Notes under the pieces: model-generated
What the model was told of the DNA's origin: nothing
What the model saw: the letters and a program-made list of their open reading frames with translations, nothing else
Database searches by the model: none
Position numbers and translations under genes: made by a program
In this document: positions 5,884 through 14,308 of the stretch, piece after piece
Layout of the letters: each line of letters begins with the position of its first letter
Numbering within the stretch: the first letter of the stretch is position 1
NCBI RefSeq assembly: GCF_016427505.1
Contig: NZ_JAELXS010000005.1
Location: 124,001 to 188,000 of the forward strand
Reading direction: 5' to 3'
From: Sphingomonas mollis
GTDB taxonomy: Bacteria > Pseudomonadota > Alphaproteobacteria > Sphingomonadales > Sphingomonadaceae
DNA: 64,000 nt

Positions 5884-6735
5884 ATGGCGGCACGGGCATA
5901 TTGGCAGGGACAGATCCGGCTCGCGCTGGTGTCGATCCCCGTCGAAATCTATTCCGCCACCAAGAGCGGCGCCGCGGTCCAGTTCCGCCAGATCCACGAA
6001 CCGTCGGGCAAGCCGATCTCGTATGAGAAGGTCGTCACCGGCGTCGGCCCGGTCGATGTCGACGAGATCGTGAAGGGCTATGAGGTCTCGAAGGGCGAAT
6101 ATGTCCTGCTGGAGCAGGACGAGATCGACGCGGTGAAGCTGGAATCGAAGAAGACGCTGGAATTGACCCAGTTCGTCGACGCGCACGAGATCGACGTCCT
6201 CTATTACGAGAAACCCTATTTCGTCGTCCCCGCCGACGATCTGGCCGAGGAAGCCTTCATCGTCCTGCGCGAGGCGCTTCGTCGGACCAAAAAGGTCGGG
6301 CTTGGCCAGCTCGCGATGCGCGGCCGCGAATATATCGTCAGCCTGAAACCCTGCGGGCGCGGACTGGTGATGGAGACGTTGCGCTACGCCGACGAGGTCA
6401 ACAAGGCGCAGGGGTATTTCCGCGAAATCCCCGACGACAAGCCCGACGCCGAACTGCTCGATCTGGCCGAGGCGCTGATCGACCGCAAGACCTCCGCCTT
6501 CGACCCCGCCAGCTTCCACGACCGCTATGTCGATGCGCTGAAGGCGCTGGTGGAGCGCAAGCGCAAGGCGAACGGCAAGAAGATCATCGAAGATAAGGAC
6601 AAGGGCGACACCGGCGGTTCCAACGTCGTCGACCTGATGGCGGCACTCCGCAAGTCGATGGGCGACAAGGCTGCGAAAAAGGCGCCGGCAAAGAAGGCAC
6701 CCGCCAAAAAAGCGCCCGTCAAAAAACGTGCATGA
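5884..6735 (+). CDS. ku: Non-homologous end-joining protein Ku
   Basis: A 283-residue bacterial Ku. The core begins [20 protein letters not shown] and continues through [39 protein letters not shown] and [20 protein letters not shown] Lys/Ala/Pro tail at residues about 260-283 contains repeated AKKAP units, a DNA-binding extension common in bacterial Ku. Ku homodimers thread onto double-strand DNA ends and recruit LigD. The ATG is preceded by GAGGTGG. It is followed after 80 bases by ligD on the same strand, the usual two-gene end-joining module. Confidence 0.96.
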
Positions 6736-6747
6736 CCCCCTCCATCC

Positions 6748-6812
6748 GTCACCCCAGCGAAAGCCGGGGTCTCTCCGCTACAGGGAGATGCAAGCCTCCG
6801 CCGGCATGACGG
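6748..6812. repeat. Palindromic intergenic repeat between ku and ligD
   Basis: An imperfect inverted repeat: CGTCACCCCAGCGAAAGCC on the left, and on the right the complement of a CGTCATGCCGGCGGAGGC-like arm. It ends just before the ligD ATG. The motif belongs to the CGTCA-CCC-GCGAA-GCCGGGGT class of short repeats common in sphingomonads. Confidence 0.6.
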
Positions 6813-6815
6813 CCA

Positions 6816-9335
6816 ATGGCTGACGCCCCCGCCGACCCCCTCGCCCTATACAACGCCAAACGGAACTTCACGAAGACCGCCGAACCCGCCGGCACGCTCG
6901 CCCCCGGCCACGGCAACAGCTTCATGGTCCAGAAGCACGACGCCACCCGCCTGCACTGGGACTTCCGCCTCGAAATCGACGGCGTCCTGAAAAGCTGGGC
7001 CGTCACCCGCGGCCCCAGCCTCGACCCCGCCGAAAAACGCCTCGCCGTCCGCACCGAGGATCATCCGCTCAGCTATGCCACGTTCGAGGGCACGATCCCC
7101 GCCGGCGAATATGGCGGCGGCACCGTGATGCTCTGGGATCGCGGCACCTGGTCGCCGATCAAGGGGAAGAGCGCGAAGGACCTCGACAAGGGCCATCTCC
7201 ACTTCGTCCTCGATGGCGAACGGATGAAGGGCGAATGGCTCCTGATCCGCCTGAAGGGCCGCCCCAAGGAAAAGCGCGAGAACTGGCTGCTCCGCAAGAT
7301 CGACGACGCCGAAGCCGGCGGCACCGACACGCTGGTCGAGGAAGCCCTGACCAGCATCTCGACCGGCCGCACGATGGCCGAAATAGCCGATGGAAAATCC
7401 TCCCCGGCAAGGAGTTCGAGGGTGGATCGCCCCCGGCGATCCAAGATTGTGCCGGGGGCACAATCGACCTCGAACTGGGGACCGCGCACGAAGCGCGTGG
7501 TGGAGGGGGGCCAGCCAAAAGCGGCGCGCTCCCGAAAAACCACCACGCCCCAATTTCGCGAACCGCAACTCTGCACCCTGGTCGACACCGTCCCCACCGG
7601 CACCGCCTGGTTGCACGAGATAAAATACGACGGCTACCGCGCCCTGATCGCCTTCGCCCACGTCAAGGCCAAGGTCCACACCCGCTCCGGTCTCGACTGG
7701 ACCGACAAGTTCCCCGCCATCGCGAAAGCAGCCGCCACCCTCCCCGGCACCGCGTTGATCGATGGCGAGATCGTGTCGTTCAAGGACGGCAAACCCGATT
7801 TCTCCACCCTGAAGAACGCCATCGCCGACAACGGCGCGATGACGATGTTCGCGTTCGACCTGATCGAACAGGACGGCGAGGATCTTGCCGACCTGCCCCT
7901 CACCACGCGCAAGGACCGCCTCCGCGCGCTGATCGGCGATGGCACCGACGAACTCCGCTATTCGGAACATGTCGTCGGCTCGGGCGAAAAACTGTTCGAC
8001 CAGATGTGCGCCGAGGGGATGGAGGGCATCGTCTCCAAACGCGCCGACAGCCCCTATCGCGGCGGCCGCAGCAAGGCGTGGCTGAAGGCGAAATGCATCC
8101 AGCGGCAGGAATTCGTGATCGTCGGCTGGCAACCCTCCACCAAGGGTCGCGGCTTCGCCTCGCTGTTGCTCGCCACCCATGACGACGGCGAATGGACCTA
8201 TCGCGGCAAAGTCGGCACCGGCTTCGACGCCGCCACCCTCGATGAAGTCGGCGCGAAGCTGAAACCTCTTGCCCGCAAGACCGCCACCGTCAAAGCACCC
8301 AAAGCCATGGTCCGCGGCGCGCACTGGGTATCGCCCGATCTTGTCGCCGAGGTCGCCTATGCGGAAATCACCCCCGACGGCATCCTCCGCCACGCCAGCT
8401 TCGTCGGCCTGCGCACCGACAAGCCCGCGACCGAGGTCGTGACCGAAACACCCGCCGCCCCGCCGGCCGACCCGAAACTCCCGAAAATCTCCAGCGCCGA
8501 TCGCCTGATCTTCCCCGACTCCGACGTCACCAAGGGCGATCTCGCCGCCTATTACGCCGCTGTCGCGCCCGTCATGCTGCCCTGGGCCGGCGACCGCCCG
8601 GTCAGCCTCGTCCGTTGTCCGCAAGGTCGCGCCCGCGCCTGTTTCTTCCAGAAGCACGACGCCGGCAGCTTCGGCGACATGGTCCATCAGGTGCCGATCC
8701 GCGAAAAGGACGGCTCCACCGAAAACTATCTCTATGTCGACGACGCCGCCGGCCTCGTCGCCTGCGTGCAGATGGGGTCGATCGAGTTCCACGGCTGGGG
8801 TGCCGCCAATGCCGCGCTGGAAAAGCCAGACCGCATGGTCTTCGATCTCGACCCCGACGAGGGCCTCGATTTCGCCGACACCAAAAAGGCCGCCGAGCAT
8901 CTGAAGGAACAGCTCGCCGAACTCGGCCTCGTCAGCTTTCCTTTATTGTCGGGCGGCAAGGGCGTGCACGTCGTCGTACCGCTGACCCCGCAGGCGGAAT
9001 GGCCCGCCGTGAAGGACTTCGCCAGCCGCTTCGCCCAGGCGCTGGCGCAGGCCGAACCCGACCGCTTCGTCGCCACCATGGCCAAGGCGAAGCGCAAGGG
9101 CCGGATCTTCATCGACTGGCTGCGCAACCAGCGCGGCAGCACCGCGATCATGCCCTATTCCGCCCGCGCCCGCGCCGGTGCCCCCGTCTCGGCCCCGGTA
9201 TCGTGGACCGAACTGCGCGACACCGACACCGCCGCCCGCTTCACCGTCCGCGACGCAAAGACCCTGATCGACCGCGCCGGCAGCCGCGCGTTGCAGGGAT
9301 GGGGCATCGCCAACCAGACGCTGCCCGATCTTTAG
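6816..9335 (+). CDS. ligD: Multifunctional DNA ligase D (phosphoesterase-ligase-polymerase)
   Basis: An 839-residue NHEJ enzyme with three domains. The 3'-phosphoesterase at about residues 30-155 has FMVQKHDATRLHWDFRLE and AGEYGGGTV. The ATP-dependent ligase is at about 250-540, with adenylated lysine K270 in EIKYDGYR and SKRADSPYRGG. The archaeo-eukaryotic primase-like polymerase is at about 565-830, with metal-binding Asp residues in VFDLDPDEG and LSGGKGVHVV. It acts with Ku to process and seal double-strand breaks. The linker at residues about 192-238 is encoded by an in-frame palindromic repeat and looks Arg/Ser/Pro-rich and disordered. The start ATG sits at the edge of another repeat, with no good ribosome site. 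Confidence 0.95.
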   Translation: MADAPADPLALYNAKRNFTKTAEPAGTLAPGHGNSFMVQKHDATRLHWDFRLEIDGVLKSWAVTRGPSLDPAEKRLAVRTEDHPLSYATFEGTIPAGEYGGGTVMLWDRGTWSPIKGKSAKDLDKGHLHFVLDGERMKGEWLLIRLKGRPKEKRENWLLRKIDDAEAGGTDTLVEEALTSISTGRTMAEIADGKSSPARSSRVDRPRRSKIVPGAQSTSNWGPRTKRVVEGGQPKAARSRKTTTPQFREPQLCTLVDTVPTGTAWLHEIKYDGYRALIAFAHVKAKVHTRSGLDWTDKFPAIAKAAATLPGTALIDGEIVSFKDGKPDFSTLKNAIADNGAMTMFAFDLIEQDGEDLADLPLTTRKDRLRALIGDGTDELRYSEHVVGSGEKLFDQMCAEGMEGIVSKRADSPYRGGRSKAWLKAKCIQRQEFVIVGWQPSTKGRGFASLLLATHDDGEWTYRGKVGTGFDAATLDEVGAKLKPLARKTATVKAPKAMVRGAHWVSPDLVAEVAYAEITPDGILRHASFVGLRTDKPATEVVTETPAAPPADPKLPKISSADRLIFPDSDVTKGDLAAYYAAVAPVMLPWAGDRPVSLVRCPQGRARACFFQKHDAGSFGDMVHQVPIREKDGSTENYLYVDDAAGLVACVQMGSIEFHGWGAANAALEKPDRMVFDLDPDEGLDFADTKKAAEHLKEQLAELGLVSFPLLSGGKGVHVVVPLTPQAEWPAVKDFASRFAQALAQAEPDRFVATMAKAKRKGRIFIDWLRNQRGSTAIMPYSARARAGAPVSAPVSWTELRDTDTAARFTVRDAKTLIDRAGSRALQGWGIANQTLPDL
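7395..7510. repeat. Nested palindromic repeat inside ligD
   Basis: The outer ends AAATCCTCCCCGGC (7395-7408) and GGTGGAGGGG (about 7499-7508) match the ends of the intergenic repeat at 13210-13263. Inside lies a second palindrome bounded by GTTCGAGG (7414-7421) and CCTCGAAC (7468-7475). It holds two hairpins, TGGATCGC/GCGATCCA (7423-7443) and ATTGTGCC/GGCACAAT (7446-7464). The whole element stays in frame with ligD and encodes the inter-domain linker. Confidence 0.75.
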
Positions 9336-9438: not shown

Positions 9439-10030
9439 ATGCGATATGCGATGGCGGCCATGGTCGCGCTTTTGATGTCGGCACCCGCCGATGCGGCCAC
9501 AATTATCCGCGCATTCGAGGTGACGGCCACCAGTTTCCGGAATTTCGACGGCAGTCCTGCGCCCTTCGCTTCGCTCGTCAGCACGTTCCAGTTGACCTAC
9601 GACGATGTCAACGGCAGTTTTTTTTGGCACGCCGGATCGCTTCCGGGCGATGACCGACGGCAAACCGGATACCGGTCCGTTTTCGGTCACGCCGACATTC
9701 GCCTACATGCCGCCATCGGCATTCTCGACGACACCGCGACTGGTGGTCGGTGGCGCCGTCAACGGGATCAATATGCTGGTGAACGGGACGAACGACTTCT
9801 TCCTCTCGTTCGATGCCAATCCTGCCGCGGCCGGTTACGCGATGATGAATTTCACGACGATGGCCGACCGGGTAGGATTTGTCGCCACCGACGCCAGGGT
9901 CGTCGAAGTGCCGGTGACGACTGCGGTTCCCGAACCATCCGTCTGGACGATGATGATCCTCGGTTTCGCAGCCATCGGTCTGGTGTTGCGGCGGCGATCG
10001 CTTTTCTGCCGGTCGGCCATCCACGCCTGA
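9439..10030 (+). pseudogene. PEPxxWA-CTERM secreted protein gene, split by a frameshift at a T8 tract
   Basis: Frame 1 starts at the ATG at 9439 after GGGGGAA. It encodes a signal peptide (AAMVALLMSAPADAA) and a domain beginning TIIRAFEVTATSF, running to DDVNGSFF. At T8 (9618-9625) the continuation moves to the next frame: GTPDRFRAMTDGKP and so on, ending in the sorting signal VPEPSVWTMMILGFAAIG and RRR. One T too many explains the break; deleting it gives one protein of about 196 residues. Such proteins are exported and processed by an exosortase system. It could be a true pseudogene, a slippage-controlled gene or a sequencing error. Confidence 0.75.
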
Positions 10031-10133: not shown

Positions 10134-10616
10134 ATGAGGAAAGAATTCGACCTTCCCGACAGCGATCTGGCCGAACGCGCGTCATGGGCGCGGTTGATCG
10201 GGGATCATGACCGGATCGCGCGGATGTGCCGCGCGCTCGTTGCGGTGTCGGAGGAGCCGGTGTCCAGCCGCGGCAAGGCATCGGGCATGCTGGCGCGGCT
10301 GGCGGTCGTCGTCGCCGACCATCTCGGCGTCGAGCGCGAGGTGGTGGACATGACCGCCGTCGCGATGGCGGCCGATTACACGGCCGACACCGTCATCGAC
10401 ATGCAGGCGACGCTCGACCTGCTGAAACAGGACTGGAAGGCGTTCATCGCCCGCTGGCTGCCGACGATCGAGGCGGATGGCTGGTCGCAATTCGGCCGCG
10501 ACGCCGCGGCGATGCTGCCCCGACTGTCGCAACAGGTCGAACAGGAGAACCGTCTGCTCTACGACGGCGCCGTCCGGTACGGCATCATCGGGCTGGGCCA
10601 TAGCGTCGTGCATTGA
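10134..10616 (+). CDS. Hypothetical all-helical protein, weakly hemerythrin-like
   Basis: A 160-residue, mostly alpha-helical soluble protein without signal peptide. WARLIGDHDRIARMCRAL and MLARLAVVVADHLGVEREVV are laid out like helices 1 and 2 of HHE/hemerythrin domains, with His in each. The remaining iron-ligand histidines are not evident, so any metal site would be degenerate. I do not recognise a specific family. The next gene, about 100 bases downstream on the same strand, is the ATP-grasp/alpha-E fusion. The start ATG at 10134 follows a short spacer without a strong ribosome site. Confidence 0.65.
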   Translation: MRKEFDLPDSDLAERASWARLIGDHDRIARMCRALVAVSEEPVSSRGKASGMLARLAVVVADHLGVEREVVDMTAVAMAADYTADTVIDMQATLDLLKQDWKAFIARWLPTIEADGWSQFGRDAAAMLPRLSQQVEQENRLLYDGAVRYGIIGLGHSVVH

Positions 10617-10723
10617 TCCGGCCCCCGATCGCCGAAACAGGTTGCGCCTGAACCCGGTCCTGTGTGACCACGCCCGGCAATCACCGCACCCGACGATCGT
10701 AAAAGGACGTGCAAGCGACAGCC

Positions 10724-13201
10724 ATGGCGACGCAGCCCGCTCCCCCTGCCCCCGGCCAGTCGGCGCCGCTGTTCGATGCGCAGGTCCATGCCCGCCGCTG
10801 GATCGACGATTATATCGCCCGCGCGCCCCTCCACGATCTGTTGCGCAGCGGCCCCACCGCGCCGTGGCAGGCGATGCTGGAAGAGTTGGCCGCCGTCGCC
10901 TCCGACGATCTCGGCCATGCGCGAGAACGGGTTCAGCGGCACGCGACCGATATCGGCACCGGTTTCCGCATCATCGGCGATGGTGAGGAGCGGCCCTGGC
11001 CCGTCTCCCCGGTCCCGCTGCTGATCGACGCCGCCGAATGGACCGGTATCGCCGCTGGCGTCGCCCAGCGCGCCGAACTGCTGGAACGGGTCACCGCCGA
11101 TCTCTACGGCGCCGGCACGCTCGTCGCGAACGGCACGTTGCCCGCCGCGCTCGTCACCGGCAGCCCGCTGTTCCTGCGCCCGATGGTCGGTATCGATCCG
11201 CCCGGCGGCCATCATCTGCATTTCATCGGCGTCGATCTCGCTCGTGGCCCCGGCGGCGAGTGGCGGGTGCTGGCCGACCACCTCCGCGCCCCCGCCGGTG
11301 CCGGCTATGCGCTCGAAAACCGGCTCGCGGTCGCGCGCACGCTCGGCGGGTTGCAGGCCAAGCTGAACGTCCAGCGCCACGCGCCGTTCTTCGCCGCCTT
11401 CCGCGCCGGCATCGCCGCCGCCTGCCGCCGCACCGATCCGCGCATCGGCCTGCTGACCCCCGGCCGCTACAATCCGTCCTACCCTGAACAGGCGCACCTC
11501 GCCCGGTATCTCGGCCTGTTGCTGGTCGAGGGCGCGGACCTCGCCGCATTGGAGGGCAAGGTCTATGTCCGCACCATCGCCGGCCTGAAACGCATCGACG
11601 CGCTCTGGCGCCGGCTCGATCCGCGCCTGCTCGATCCGCTGGCGTTCGACACCCATTCGCAGATCGGCGTGCCCGGCCTGATCGACGCCTGGGCGGACGG
11701 CGAGGTCGTGCTCGCCAACGCCCCCGGCGCCGGCGCGCTGGAGGCCCCCGCCTTCGCCGCGTTCATGCCCACCCTGTCGCGCGCCGTGCTGGGCGAGACG
11801 TTGAAGCTGCCCACCATCGCCACGTGGTGGTGCGCGGGCGATGCGCAGCGCGCGCATGTCGAGGCGAACCTCGACACCCTCACCATCGCCCCCGCCTTCG
11901 GCCATCTGCCGCTCGGCCTCGCCGACCATGCCTCGCGCGCCGACCTGCTCGCCGATCTCGCCCGCCGGCCGCAGGATTATGTCGGGCAGGAGGAGGTCGC
12001 GCTGTCGACCATGCCCGTCGTCGTCGGCGACCGGCTGGAACCGCGCCCCTTCACGCTGCGCGTCTTCGCGGCGCGCGGGGCGGATGGCGAATGGGTGGTC
12101 ATGCCCGGCGGCTTCGGCCGGATCGGCGAACATCCTCAGGCCACCGCCGTGGCGATCGGCGAGGGACTGTGGTCGGCGGACGTCTGCATCCACGGCTCCG
12201 AACCCGTCGCCGCCATCTCGCTGCTGACCGCGCCCGATTCGCTGCACGTCCGCCGCAATCCCGGCACCCTGCCCAGCCGCGTCGCCGACAATTTCTATTG
12301 GCTCGGCCGCTATCTGGAACGGGGCGAGGCGCTGCTGGCGGCGATCCGCGTACTGCTCGGCAATTCGATCGACGTCGATGGCGGAGCGGTGCTGTCGCCG
12401 GCGACGGTCGGCAAGCTCGTCGGCCTGATCGTCGGCGCCGGCGGCGCGGCGCATCCGCCCGGCCTGTCGCGCGCGGCGCTGACCGCTTTCGCTCGCGCCG
12501 CGATGGAGGACGAAGGCTGGCAATCGGTCGCCGCCGTCAACCGCTACGCACGAGAGATCGGCGAGGCATCGCGCGACCGCCTGTCCGCCGATATGGTCCG
12601 CCTGCTGGAGGCGCCCTTTCCCACCCAGCGCGGGATGCTGGAACGCGCCGGCACGCTGCAGCGCCGTTACGCCGCCATCGCCGGGCTGTCGGCGGAACAC
12701 ATGGTCCGCAACGATGCATGGCGCTTCCACGATCTCGGCCGCCGGATCGAACGCGCCATGGCCACCGCCCGCGCGCTGCGCCTTTTCGGGATGAAGGACG
12801 ACACCGTCTCGACCCCCGACGACCTGTCGACGCTGCTCGATCTCGGCGACAGCCAGATCAGCTATCGCCAGCGTTATCCCACCGGCGTCGCCCGCGTGCC
12901 CGTCGTCGATCTCGTTGCGCTCGACCCCGGTAACCCGCGCAGCCTCGCCTTTCAGGCCGAGCGCATCGCGGAGCATCTGGCGAAGCTGCCGGTGCTGGGC
13001 GACGACGACATGGCCGAATCGCAACAGTCCCACGCCACCGCCCTTGCCGCGATCATCGCGACGGCGACGGCCGCCGACCTGAACCCCGACACGCTCGGCG
13101 ACGTCGAACGCCGTCTCGGCACCCTGTCGGAAGCCGTCGCCCGCCGTTACTTCCTGCAAGGCGCCGAACCGCTGCGCGCCGTAGGCCTGACGCTTGCGTG
13201 A
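10724..13201 (+). CDS. Circularly permuted ATP-grasp / alpha-E domain fusion protein
   Basis: About 825 residues. The N-terminal half (about 80-480) is the circularly permuted ATP-grasp domain (DUF404/407 group): GAGTLVANGTLPAALVTGS, HFIGVDLARGPGGEWRVLAD, GAGYALENRLAVART, GRYNPSYPEQAHLARYLG and PSRVADNFYWLGRYLERGE at the junction. The C-terminal half (about 510-820) is an alpha-E (DUF403) helical domain: RAGTLQRRYAAIAGL, DAWRFHDLGRRIERA and SQISYRQRYPTG. These families are predicted peptide-bond-forming or tagging enzymes of unknown substrate, usually with a transglutaminase, as here. A GTG at 10709 is an alternative start. Confidence 0.9.
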   Translation: MATQPAPPAPGQSAPLFDAQVHARRWIDDYIARAPLHDLLRSGPTAPWQAMLEELAAVASDDLGHARERVQRHATDIGTGFRIIGDGEERPWPVSPVPLLIDAAEWTGIAAGVAQRAELLERVTADLYGAGTLVANGTLPAALVTGSPLFLRPMVGIDPPGGHHLHFIGVDLARGPGGEWRVLADHLRAPAGAGYALENRLAVARTLGGLQAKLNVQRHAPFFAAFRAGIAAACRRTDPRIGLLTPGRYNPSYPEQAHLARYLGLLLVEGADLAALEGKVYVRTIAGLKRIDALWRRLDPRLLDPLAFDTHSQIGVPGLIDAWADGEVVLANAPGAGALEAPAFAAFMPTLSRAVLGETLKLPTIATWWCAGDAQRAHVEANLDTLTIAPAFGHLPLGLADHASRADLLADLARRPQDYVGQEEVALSTMPVVVGDRLEPRPFTLRVFAARGADGEWVVMPGGFGRIGEHPQATAVAIGEGLWSADVCIHGSEPVAAISLLTAPDSLHVRRNPGTLPSRVADNFYWLGRYLERGEALLAAIRVLLGNSIDVDGGAVLSPATVGKLVGLIVGAGGAAHPPGLSRAALTAFARAAMEDEGWQSVAAVNRYAREIGEASRDRLSADMVRLLEAPFPTQRGMLERAGTLQRRYAAIAGLSAEHMVRNDAWRFHDLGRRIERAMATARALRLFGMKDDTVSTPDDLSTLLDLGDSQISYRQRYPTGVARVPVVDLVALDPGNPRSLAFQAERIAEHLAKLPVLGDDDMAESQQSHATALAAIIATATAADLNPDTLGDVERRLGTLSEAVARRYFLQGAEPLRAVGLTLA

Positions 13202-13209
13202 AGCGATCC

Positions 13210-13395
13210 AGATCCTCCCCGGCACAGGGAGGGGGACCATCGGCAAAGCCGATGGTGGAGGGGGCTCACCGCGAACGCCACGCCTGCAAAAAGGCACCGG
13301 CCCGCGACAGCAGGTTCAGCCACCCGCCCGCCTGCGGTCACCCCCCTCCACCACCAGCTACGCTGGCGGTCCCCCTCCCCGTGCCGGGGAGGATT
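13210..13395. repeat. Head-to-head pair of palindromic repeat elements
   Basis: The unit GATCCTCCCCGGCACAGGGA, a variable stem ATCGGC-AAA-GCCGAT, then GGTGGAGGGGG lies at 13210-13263. An inverted copy, whose complement reads AATCCTCCCCGGCACGGGGA and ends GGTGGAGGGGGG, lies at 13346-13395. The 80-base middle is unremarkable. The pair fills the gap between the ATP-grasp and transglutaminase genes. Confidence 0.8.
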
Positions 13396-13402
13396 TAGGC
13401 AT

Positions 13403-14308
13403 ATGATCTACCACATCCGCCACATCACCCGCTTCGACTACGGCAATCAGGTGAAGTTCGCCCGCTGCAACCTGCGGCTCAAACCGATCGACTGGCCGGG
13501 CCAGCACCTTGAGGACTATACCCTCACCGTCGAACCCGTCGGTCGCCTCGGCCCCGCCCATGCCGAGGCGGGGCTGGCGAACGTCACGCGACTCGTCGTC
13601 GACACCCCCGTCCGCACCCTGTCGATCGAAAGCGCCGCGCGCGTCACCGTCGATCGCCTGATCCCGATCCCCGACGCCAGCGACCCGACGCTGGCGGACA
13701 TCGCGGCGTGGGCGCGCGCCAGCCACGACCTGTCCGCCGCCGGCCCGGCCAATTACATCTATCCCTCGCCCCTGATCCCGCTCGATCCAGAGATCGGCGA
13801 CTGGTGCGCGCAGGACCTGACCCCCGACCGCGGCTGTCTGGAGGCCGGGATGGCGCTGGCGCTTCGCATCCAGCGCGATTTCCAGTTCGACGGCACCGCG
13901 ACCTTCGTCGATACGCCGCCGCGCGACGCCTTTCGCCAGCGGCGCGGGGTGTGTCAGGATTTCGCGCAGATCATGATTACCGGGCTGCGCGCCGCCGGCC
14001 TGCCCGCCGCCTATGCCTCGGGCTATATCCGCACCATCCCGCCCCCCGGCCAGCCCCGCCTCGTCGGCGCGGACGCGACCCATGCCTGGGTGTTGCTGTG
14101 GTGCGGGCCGGTGCGCGGCTGGGTCGGCATCGATCCGACCAACGGCATCTGGATGGCCGGCGATCACATCGTCATGGCGGTCGGCCGCGACTATGCCGAA
14201 ATCGCCCCCGTCGATGGCGTCGTGCTGGGGTCGGGCGCGCAACAGATGGACGTCAGCGTCGATGTCGAACCGCTGGAGGGCGGGCTGTCCTACAGCACCG
14301 CTCCCTGA
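13403..14308 (+). CDS. Transglutaminase-like cysteine peptidase family protein
   Basis: A 301-residue protein with an N-terminal beta-sandwich (bacterial transglutaminase-like N domain: YHIRHITRFDYGNQVKFARC) and a transglutaminase core at about 160-260. The catalytic triad is visible: C184 in RRGVCQDFAQ, H227 in DATHAWVL, D244 in WVGIDPTNG. A conserved GLPAAYASGYIR precedes the His. There is no signal peptide. Members of this family are found beside circularly permuted ATP-grasp and alpha-E genes and are predicted to cleave or crosslink the peptides those enzymes make. The ATG lies eight bases after a palindromic repeat. Confidence 0.92.
   Translation: MIYHIRHITRFDYGNQVKFARCNLRLKPIDWPGQHLEDYTLTVEPVGRLGPAHAEAGLANVTRLVVDTPVRTLSIESAARVTVDRLIPIPDASDPTLADIAAWARASHDLSAAGPANYIYPSPLIPLDPEIGDWCAQDLTPDRGCLEAGMALALRIQRDFQFDGTATFVDTPPRDAFRQRRGVCQDFAQIMITGLRAAGLPAAYASGYIRTIPPPGQPRLVGADATHAWVLLWCGPVRGWVGIDPTNGIWMAGDHIVMAVGRDYAEIAPVDGVVLGSGAQQMDVSVDVEPLEGGLSYSTAP

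Follow-up and report, generated by a model that had tools for sequence, protein, structure and literature searches.

The fused gene and its neighbours in Sphingomonas mollis

We investigated a window of 64,000 nucleotides from Sphingomonas mollis (assembly GCF_016427505.1, contig NZ_JAELXS010000005.1, positions 124,001 to 188,000 of the forward strand), which contains a gene fusing a circularly permuted (CP) ATP-grasp-fold domain to an Alpha-E domain, followed by a transglutaminase gene; positions given below are those of the window. The fused gene (10724..13201, plus strand) starts at an ATG at 10724, with a GTG at 10709 as an alternative, and stops at 13201. Its single open frame of 825 amino acids contains the ATP-grasp-fold domain PF14403 (11015..12124, plus strand, residues 98-467, E-value 3e-125) and then the Alpha-E domain PF04168 (12269..13153, plus strand, residues 516-810, E-value 3e-59), which score 418 and 202 bits against curated Pfam cut-offs of 32 and 20.8, and the W-x-G-R and ER motifs of the Alpha-E domain are retained. 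The transglutaminase (13403..14308, plus strand, 301 amino acids) consists of Bact_transglu_N and Transglut_core domains (PF08379 and PF01841), with Cys184, His227 and Asp244 in the aligned places of the catalytic triad. Both the fusion of the two domains in a chain of about 825 residues and the intact triad had been proposed in an earlier note on this DNA, and both are borne out. A hemerythrin-like gene lies upstream (10134-10616, 28.5 bits against the Pfam Hemerythrin cut-off of 25.3). A search of NCBIfam assigned no family to any of three proteins, and the closest named relatives are from Sphingomonas, at no more than 78% identity.

Loss of the presumed catalytic residues in the fused family

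We aligned 55 fused and 94 separate ATP-grasp proteins from the window's genome and a class sample of 290 genomes drawn by the search tool, in which 54 fused loci were listed besides the window's own. The separate proteins were taken from the same fused-positive genomes, where their places were listed, and from 39 of the 73 PF14403-positive genomes without a fused gene among the matches listed, hand-picked roughly in listing order. Throughout, a genome without a fused gene is one with none among the matches listed; a very divergent fused gene could be missed.

All 94 separate proteins retain the Glu and Asn of an E-x-N motif (its first and third places), a Lys, and the His and Asp of an H-x-D motif, with two Gly of the loop after the Lys retained in 94 and 93, whereas among the 55 fused proteins the Glu, Asn, His and Asp are retained in none, the Lys in 10 and the two Gly in 4 and 6. 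We take E-x-N, the Lys and H-x-D to be ligands of Mg2+ and ATP, reading the alignment in the light of general knowledge of the ATP-grasp superfamily. In the window's protein, Ala184-Asp185-His186 (11273..11281) replaces E-x-N, the presumed Mg ligands, Ala389 (11888..11890) replaces the presumed ATP-binding Lys, with loss of the Gly-rich loop after it, and Pro442-Phe443-Thr444 (12047..12055) replaces His-x-Asp, all on the plus strand. Among solved structures, 3n6x matches the sequence best (E-value 1e-60); its Leu-Glu-Asp-Asn corresponds to Leu-Ala-Asp-His in the window's protein, and its Val-Lys and Gly-rich loop correspond to Ile-Ala and an unlike loop.

The same pattern was found more widely. 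Across 80 named fused loci, the Asn, Lys, His and Asp are retained in none, the Glu in one, and the E-x-N pair in none, and the fused proteins of one Betaproteobacteria and of one Acidobacteriota plasmid have also lost the Glu, Asn, His and Asp, the latter retaining the Lys. Among 106 columns that are near-invariant in the separate proteins, 29 are retained in at most one fifth of the fused proteins, including the Glu, Asn, Lys, loop Gly, H-x-D and a DDK motif, and 31 are retained in at least nine tenths. The presumed Mg2+/ATP-binding residues have, on this alignment, been lost family-wide in the fused branch. The fused branch bears an ordinary automatic name in public records, and among the proteins annotated as "circularly permuted type 2 ATP-grasp protein" this one branch looks non-catalytic; the label "ATP-grasp" is right for the fold and not for the catalytic residues.

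The earlier note read the locus as a possible peptide-tagging module. In its self-contained form, the fusion would ligate peptides with ATP and the transglutaminase would carry out a second step of amide formation, as family membership, the intact triad and the published prediction for these families (Iyer 2009 as cited in the available parts of PMC5666114, PMC6376114 and PMC3597751) would favour. The 29 lost columns and the absence of the E-x-N pair from all 55 and all 80 fused proteins argue against this reading, which we consider very unlikely, and a stand-alone ligase is not supported by the alignment. What stands of the tagging proposal is the family assignment, the triad and the co-occurrence described below; the locus itself as a ligase module does not, its ATP-binding residues appearing inactive at the sequence level in the window and across the fused family, an outcome that the earlier note had named as refuting.

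Distribution and composition of the fused operon

A transglutaminase with the catalytic Cys was found downstream of the fused gene in all 55 class loci, with the full triad in 54. In the 80 named loci it was found in 78, every one with the full Cys-His-Asp triad; in the other two, L250 and L266, the contig ends at this place. We additionally identified, upstream and on the same strand, a gene for a transglutaminase-DUF2126 protein of about 1100 residues in 41 of the 55 class loci (within 400 nucleotides in 37), and in 51 of the 70 named loci whose upstream sequence reaches 3.5 kb or more. This gene was not found at the window locus, nor at any of the 17 Sphingomonas and Stakelama loci (within L240-L258) that have this length of sequence upstream. 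Similarly, a search with PF09899 (DUF2126) matched none of 61 genus genomes, the window's own included (55 of the 61 with a completeness of 90% or more and contamination of 5% or less), and did match the one control genome, Synechococcus elongatus. The third subunit, a putative amidoligase, has been lost in the window's genus; S. jatrophae (L259) retains the gene.

The earlier note also suggested that the hemerythrin-like gene may belong to the module. No homologue of it was found in the 54 other fused class loci or the 80 named loci, and in Sphingomonas parapaucimobilis pdxH takes its place upstream of the fused gene; as it never recurs beside fused loci, we reject it as a member. Downstream of the operon in S. 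parapaucimobilis the order is a small gene, DnaJ, YihY, FabI, an acetyltransferase and aroC, which resembles the window, where DnaJ and the enoyl reductase gave Pfam matches and the remainder was compared by eye. This S. parapaucimobilis locus (L372), with its fused operon, fabI and aroC, is on NZ_CP155752.1, a 395 kb sequence labelled as a plasmid.

The fused gene and the transglutaminase overlap by 4 nucleotides in S. parapaucimobilis, whereas in the window they are separated by an inverted repeat (13212-13394) with arms of 61 nucleotides that are 84% complementary and an RNA fold z-score of -10. It looks like an inserted palindromic element.

Fold, phylogeny and selection

An AlphaFold2 model built from 67 fused sequences had a mean predicted local distance difference test score of 86.5 and a predicted template modelling score of 0.82. 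Its top structural match is 3n6x (Z-score 42.0, root-mean-square deviation 3.5 over 433 residues), with glutathione synthetases matching at Z-scores of about 24-26, and the glutathione-synthetase-like fold is thus predicted to be retained in the fused protein. For the Alpha-E part, taken as a domain within the full model, the structure search returned helical proteins, at Z-scores below 10, which is under the tool's informative level. A tree of the ATP-grasp domains from the 55 fused and 94 separate proteins (149 in all), made by a quick method that carries a warning about long branches, sets the fused proteins apart by a single branch with support of 100, corresponding to one change. The ratio of nonsynonymous to synonymous substitution rates (dN/dS) of the fused gene was 0.17-0.32 against five named relatives and 0.30 against genome G009, and the fused protein is under purifying selection. 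Thus, the retained fold, the dN/dS values and the single clade point to a conserved branch that looks non-catalytic, and not to a decaying gene. The fusion is a widespread conserved subfamily and is not peculiar to the window's genome.

We reject decay of the fused gene because of its dN/dS values and its phylogenetic breadth. The wider reading, of a decaying or neutral paralogue without present function, could draw on the lost catalytic residues, the missing DUF2126 subunit in the genus and the inverted repeat that splits the two genes, but besides the constraint on its sequence the gene is present in 55 of the 61 genus genomes, the same motif changes recur across phyla and the frame is open, and we regard this reading as extremely improbable.

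Four residues are near-invariant and specific to the fused proteins, namely Trp180 (51 of 55), Gly194 (54 of 55), Glu340 (49 of 55) and Trp369 (54 of 55), which suggests that the fused protein still binds something at the old pocket. In addition, an Arg occupies the position of the lost Asn in 46 of the 55. These residues, and a region that is conserved and not decayed, could also be those of an enzyme with an ATP-independent active site repurposed within the old pocket. We saw no new catalytic set by eye, however, the window's protein has Ala and His at the two key places, and the conserved residues fit ligand binding just as well, leaving this a decidedly unlikely reading.

Co-occurrence with the canonical ATP-grasp/Alpha-E set

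We identified a second, canonical locus on contig C18 of the window's genome, with a separate ATP-grasp gene whose motifs are intact, an Alpha-E gene and a transglutaminase with another residue in place of the catalytic Cys. The two loci appear complementary in sequence, with an intact ligase and a dead transglutaminase in one, and a dead ligase and an intact transglutaminase in the other.

This pairing extends across the samples. The fused gene was found, among the matches listed, in at least 55 of the 290 class genomes and at least 36 of 149 genomes of the family sample. A separate ATP-grasp locus was examined in 53 of the 55 fused-positive class genomes, each with an adjoining Alpha-E gene, and the other two (G172 and G194) contain a second PF14403 match; in the genus, where 55 of the 61 genomes have the fused gene, a separate ATP-grasp was listed in 54 of those 55. 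The fused operon therefore occurs almost only in genomes with an intact ATP-grasp gene and an adjoining Alpha-E gene, and the genome-wide co-occurrence of the families, proposed as a check in the earlier note, is confirmed for the downstream transglutaminase and for the separate pair alike. In seven of the 55 class loci (L087, L094, L100, L102, L103, L106 and L115), the fused operon is followed on the same strand by the intact ATP-grasp and Alpha-E genes.

We found no Anbu-type peptidase beside the window locus, in agreement with the earlier note, nor beside the C18 locus. A whole-genome search with an alphaproteobacterial Anbu query gave no match at an E-value of 1e-3, an empty answer that is weak on its own. 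A search of the genome with PF00227 returned one frame of 197 amino acids on another contig, and PF00227 is unsound as a test for Anbu, its cut-off of 22.4 bits being missed by a canonical-locus Anbu at 18.6 bits.

Other genes were noted around the canonical pair. An ATE family gene (arginyl/leucyl-tRNA-protein transferase, PF04376/PF04377), encoding another protein-tagging enzyme, lies near it in 16 genomes, the window's included (for example L003, 9964-10737); the naming is from a representative in L140 and the count was made within the fetched stretches. In L145 (G106) and L149 (G003), a transglutaminase of the fused-operon type, with its Cys, stands beside the canonical pair in place of the canonical type. 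L010 contains at 6151-7970 a third transglutaminase of the same genome, which is of the Bact_transglu_N type and has a second Transglut_core protein after it.

Loss of the catalytic Cys from canonical transglutaminases

We compared the transglutaminases of canonical loci between genomes with and without the fused gene. To look within the window's own family, the family sample added 20 canonical loci out of 34 further fused-positive genomes, hand-picked among those with listed places and mostly near the window's clade, and, as fused-negative genomes, the first 30 in listing order with two class-sample ones skipped, of which 29 had a match. The Cys is missing from 7 of 18 canonical transglutaminases in fused-positive genomes against 0 of 30 in the others in the class sample, and from 8 of 18 resolvable fused-positive rows against 0 of 29 in the family sample. 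Pooled over 94 canonical transglutaminases, Cys-less forms make up 15 of 36 fused-positive rows and 0 of 58 others.

Fisher's test on the pooled counts gives p 6e-8, but the genomes are related, and therefore a count on the tree is fairer: Cys loss on the pooled tree takes 8 changes, at least 6 of them forced by well-supported branches. A coarser test per family, with families counted by hand and roughly, gives p 0.003. As the replacing residues differ (Pro, Gly, Tyr, Ser, Ala, Thr and Val), the pattern fits repeated and independent loss of the Cys, about eight times. Left out of the pooled count were L320, two pieces of L353, L369, L010 and L113. For L320, from the same-genus genome G428, only a fragment aligned; by eye it has no Cys, which would favour the proposal made below, and it is uncounted. 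L353 is frame-broken with its Cys present, and L369, L010 and L113 are other transglutaminases. L324 has no canonical transglutaminase.

An adjacent canonical transglutaminase with an intact Cys was found in 11 of 53 fused-positive genomes, compared with 30 of 39 others. The canonical operon's own transglutaminase is thus often absent or Cys-less where the fused operon is present. Against G009, dN/dS was 0.47 for the Cys-less transglutaminase, 0.20 for the separate ATP-grasp and 0.33 for the transglutaminase of the fused operon, so that in the window's genome the Cys-less canonical gene is the least constrained of the three.

A proposed accessory module

We propose, with moderate confidence, that the locus is an accessory module of two subunits within the CP-ATP-grasp/Alpha-E/transglutaminase system, which supplies a transglutaminase and a non-catalytic adaptor to the canonical set. 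The ATP-dependent step would fall to the intact ATP-grasp, encoded here on contig C18, which would attach an amine or amino acid to a carboxyl group on a peptide or protein. As an adaptor, the fused pseudo-ligase would bind either this substrate or product or else the active ligase, making contact through its Alpha-E domain. It would then pass the substrate on to the papain-fold transglutaminase encoded downstream, for transfer or hydrolysis of the amide. This transglutaminase may do the thiol step for both loci, and transglutaminase-DUF2126 would be the third subunit that completes the module in most relatives.

A more far-reaching version, which we put forward tentatively and as somewhat doubtful, is that the two unlinked operons form one amide-modifying machine, in which the pseudo-ligase works in trans with the active ligase, the transglutaminase of the fused operon is shared and the canonical transglutaminase is kept as a pseudoenzyme. 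If true, this would amount to a bacterial complex for modifying proteins or peptides, defined by its dead-ligase adaptor.

Several observations weigh against the accessory module. The assignment of ATP and Mg ligands rests on knowledge of the superfamily and not on a ligand-bound CP structure, and a Lys still stands at the ATP-Lys column in 10 of the 55 class fused proteins, as does the Glu in 1 of the 80 named ones. Most genomes, that of the window among them, carry the fused and canonical loci without linkage, and for one fused-positive genome of the genus, G437, no separate ATP-grasp was listed. The canonical Cys is retained in 21 of the 36 fused-positive rows, indicating that take-over of the thiol step is not universal, and 9 of the 39 fused-negative genomes are also without an adjacent canonical transglutaminase. 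Finally, according to the available parts of PMC6376114, no specific interaction was detected between the Anbu of Y. bercovieri and other proteins of its canonical operon.

The transglutaminase could instead be an editing hydrolase, taking off what the canonical ATP-grasp adds. We take its family to have a papain-like fold, and in glutathionylspermidine synthetase/amidase synthesis and removal likewise stand in opposition. Further precedents come from Pseudomonas, in which RimB takes off what RimK adds, and strains without the paired proteases are rescued when the ATP-grasp RloC or the inactive transglutaminase RloB is lost as well (available parts of PMC12239564). However, Transglut_core proteins can form amides too, and the frequent loss of the canonical Cys would then mean that editing was lost there; we consider it unlikely.

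On the accessory-module reading, the pattern assigns ATP chemistry to the separate ATP-grasp, thiol chemistry to the transglutaminase of the fused operon and binding to the fused protein, and it also marks lineages with a natural loss of each step, which reduces the broad 2009 prediction to a few single-gene experiments.

Relation to known systems

The families and the tagging prediction are already known: an operon of CP ATP-grasp, Alpha-E, transglutaminase and Anbu was predicted to be a peptide-synthesis or tagging system (Iyer 2009 as cited in the accessible text of PMC5666114, PMC6376114 and PMC3597751). In the literature searched, to which Iyer 2009 itself did not belong, we found no statement that the fused branch is catalytically dead or tracks canonical transglutaminase loss, and no substrate for these families. 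From the accessible parts of the respective papers, the canonical ATP-grasp of Y. bercovieri liberates phosphate from ATP (PMC6376114), and the P. putida genes for Anbu and ATP-grasp are up by about 4 log2 units under nitrogen limitation, with nitrate replacing ammonium (PMC8050072).

The window shares with the canonical Anbu-type operon the same three domain families, with the transglutaminase beside ATP-grasp and Alpha-E, but in the window the latter two are fused, the ATP-grasp residues are lost, no Anbu was found and the fused proteins form a separate clade. It also resembles the three-gene operon of transglutaminase-DUF2126, fused ATP-grasp-Alpha-E and transglutaminase (found in Alphaproteobacteria, one Betaproteobacteria and one Acidobacteriota plasmid), of which it represents genes 2 and 3, with the degenerate motifs and the intact transglutaminase in common; neither the window locus, nor its genome, nor the genus sample has the first gene, the DUF2126 amidoligase. 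The solved structure 3n6x, a putative glutathionylspermidine synthase of Methylobacillus flagellatus, has the same fold (about 30% identity), but it possesses the Glu-Asp-Asn and Lys...Gly-Ser-Gly-Gly motifs in a chain of 474 residues without an Alpha-E fusion. The Pseudomonas rlo operon (RloA protease, inactive transglutaminase RloB and ATP-grasp RloC) resembles the canonical C18 operon in combining a dead transglutaminase with an ATP-grasp, although RloC shares 24% identity with RimK, there are seven membrane helices in RloB and the proteases are secreted; the likeness is drawn from the description in the available parts of PMC12239564.

Other features of the window

Upstream of the hemerythrin-like gene, we additionally noted a non-homologous end-joining pair at 5884-9335, consisting of a gene of 283 residues that is Ku-like by eye and then a LigD-type DNA ligase, and a small protein with a PEP-CTERM motif at 9605-10030.

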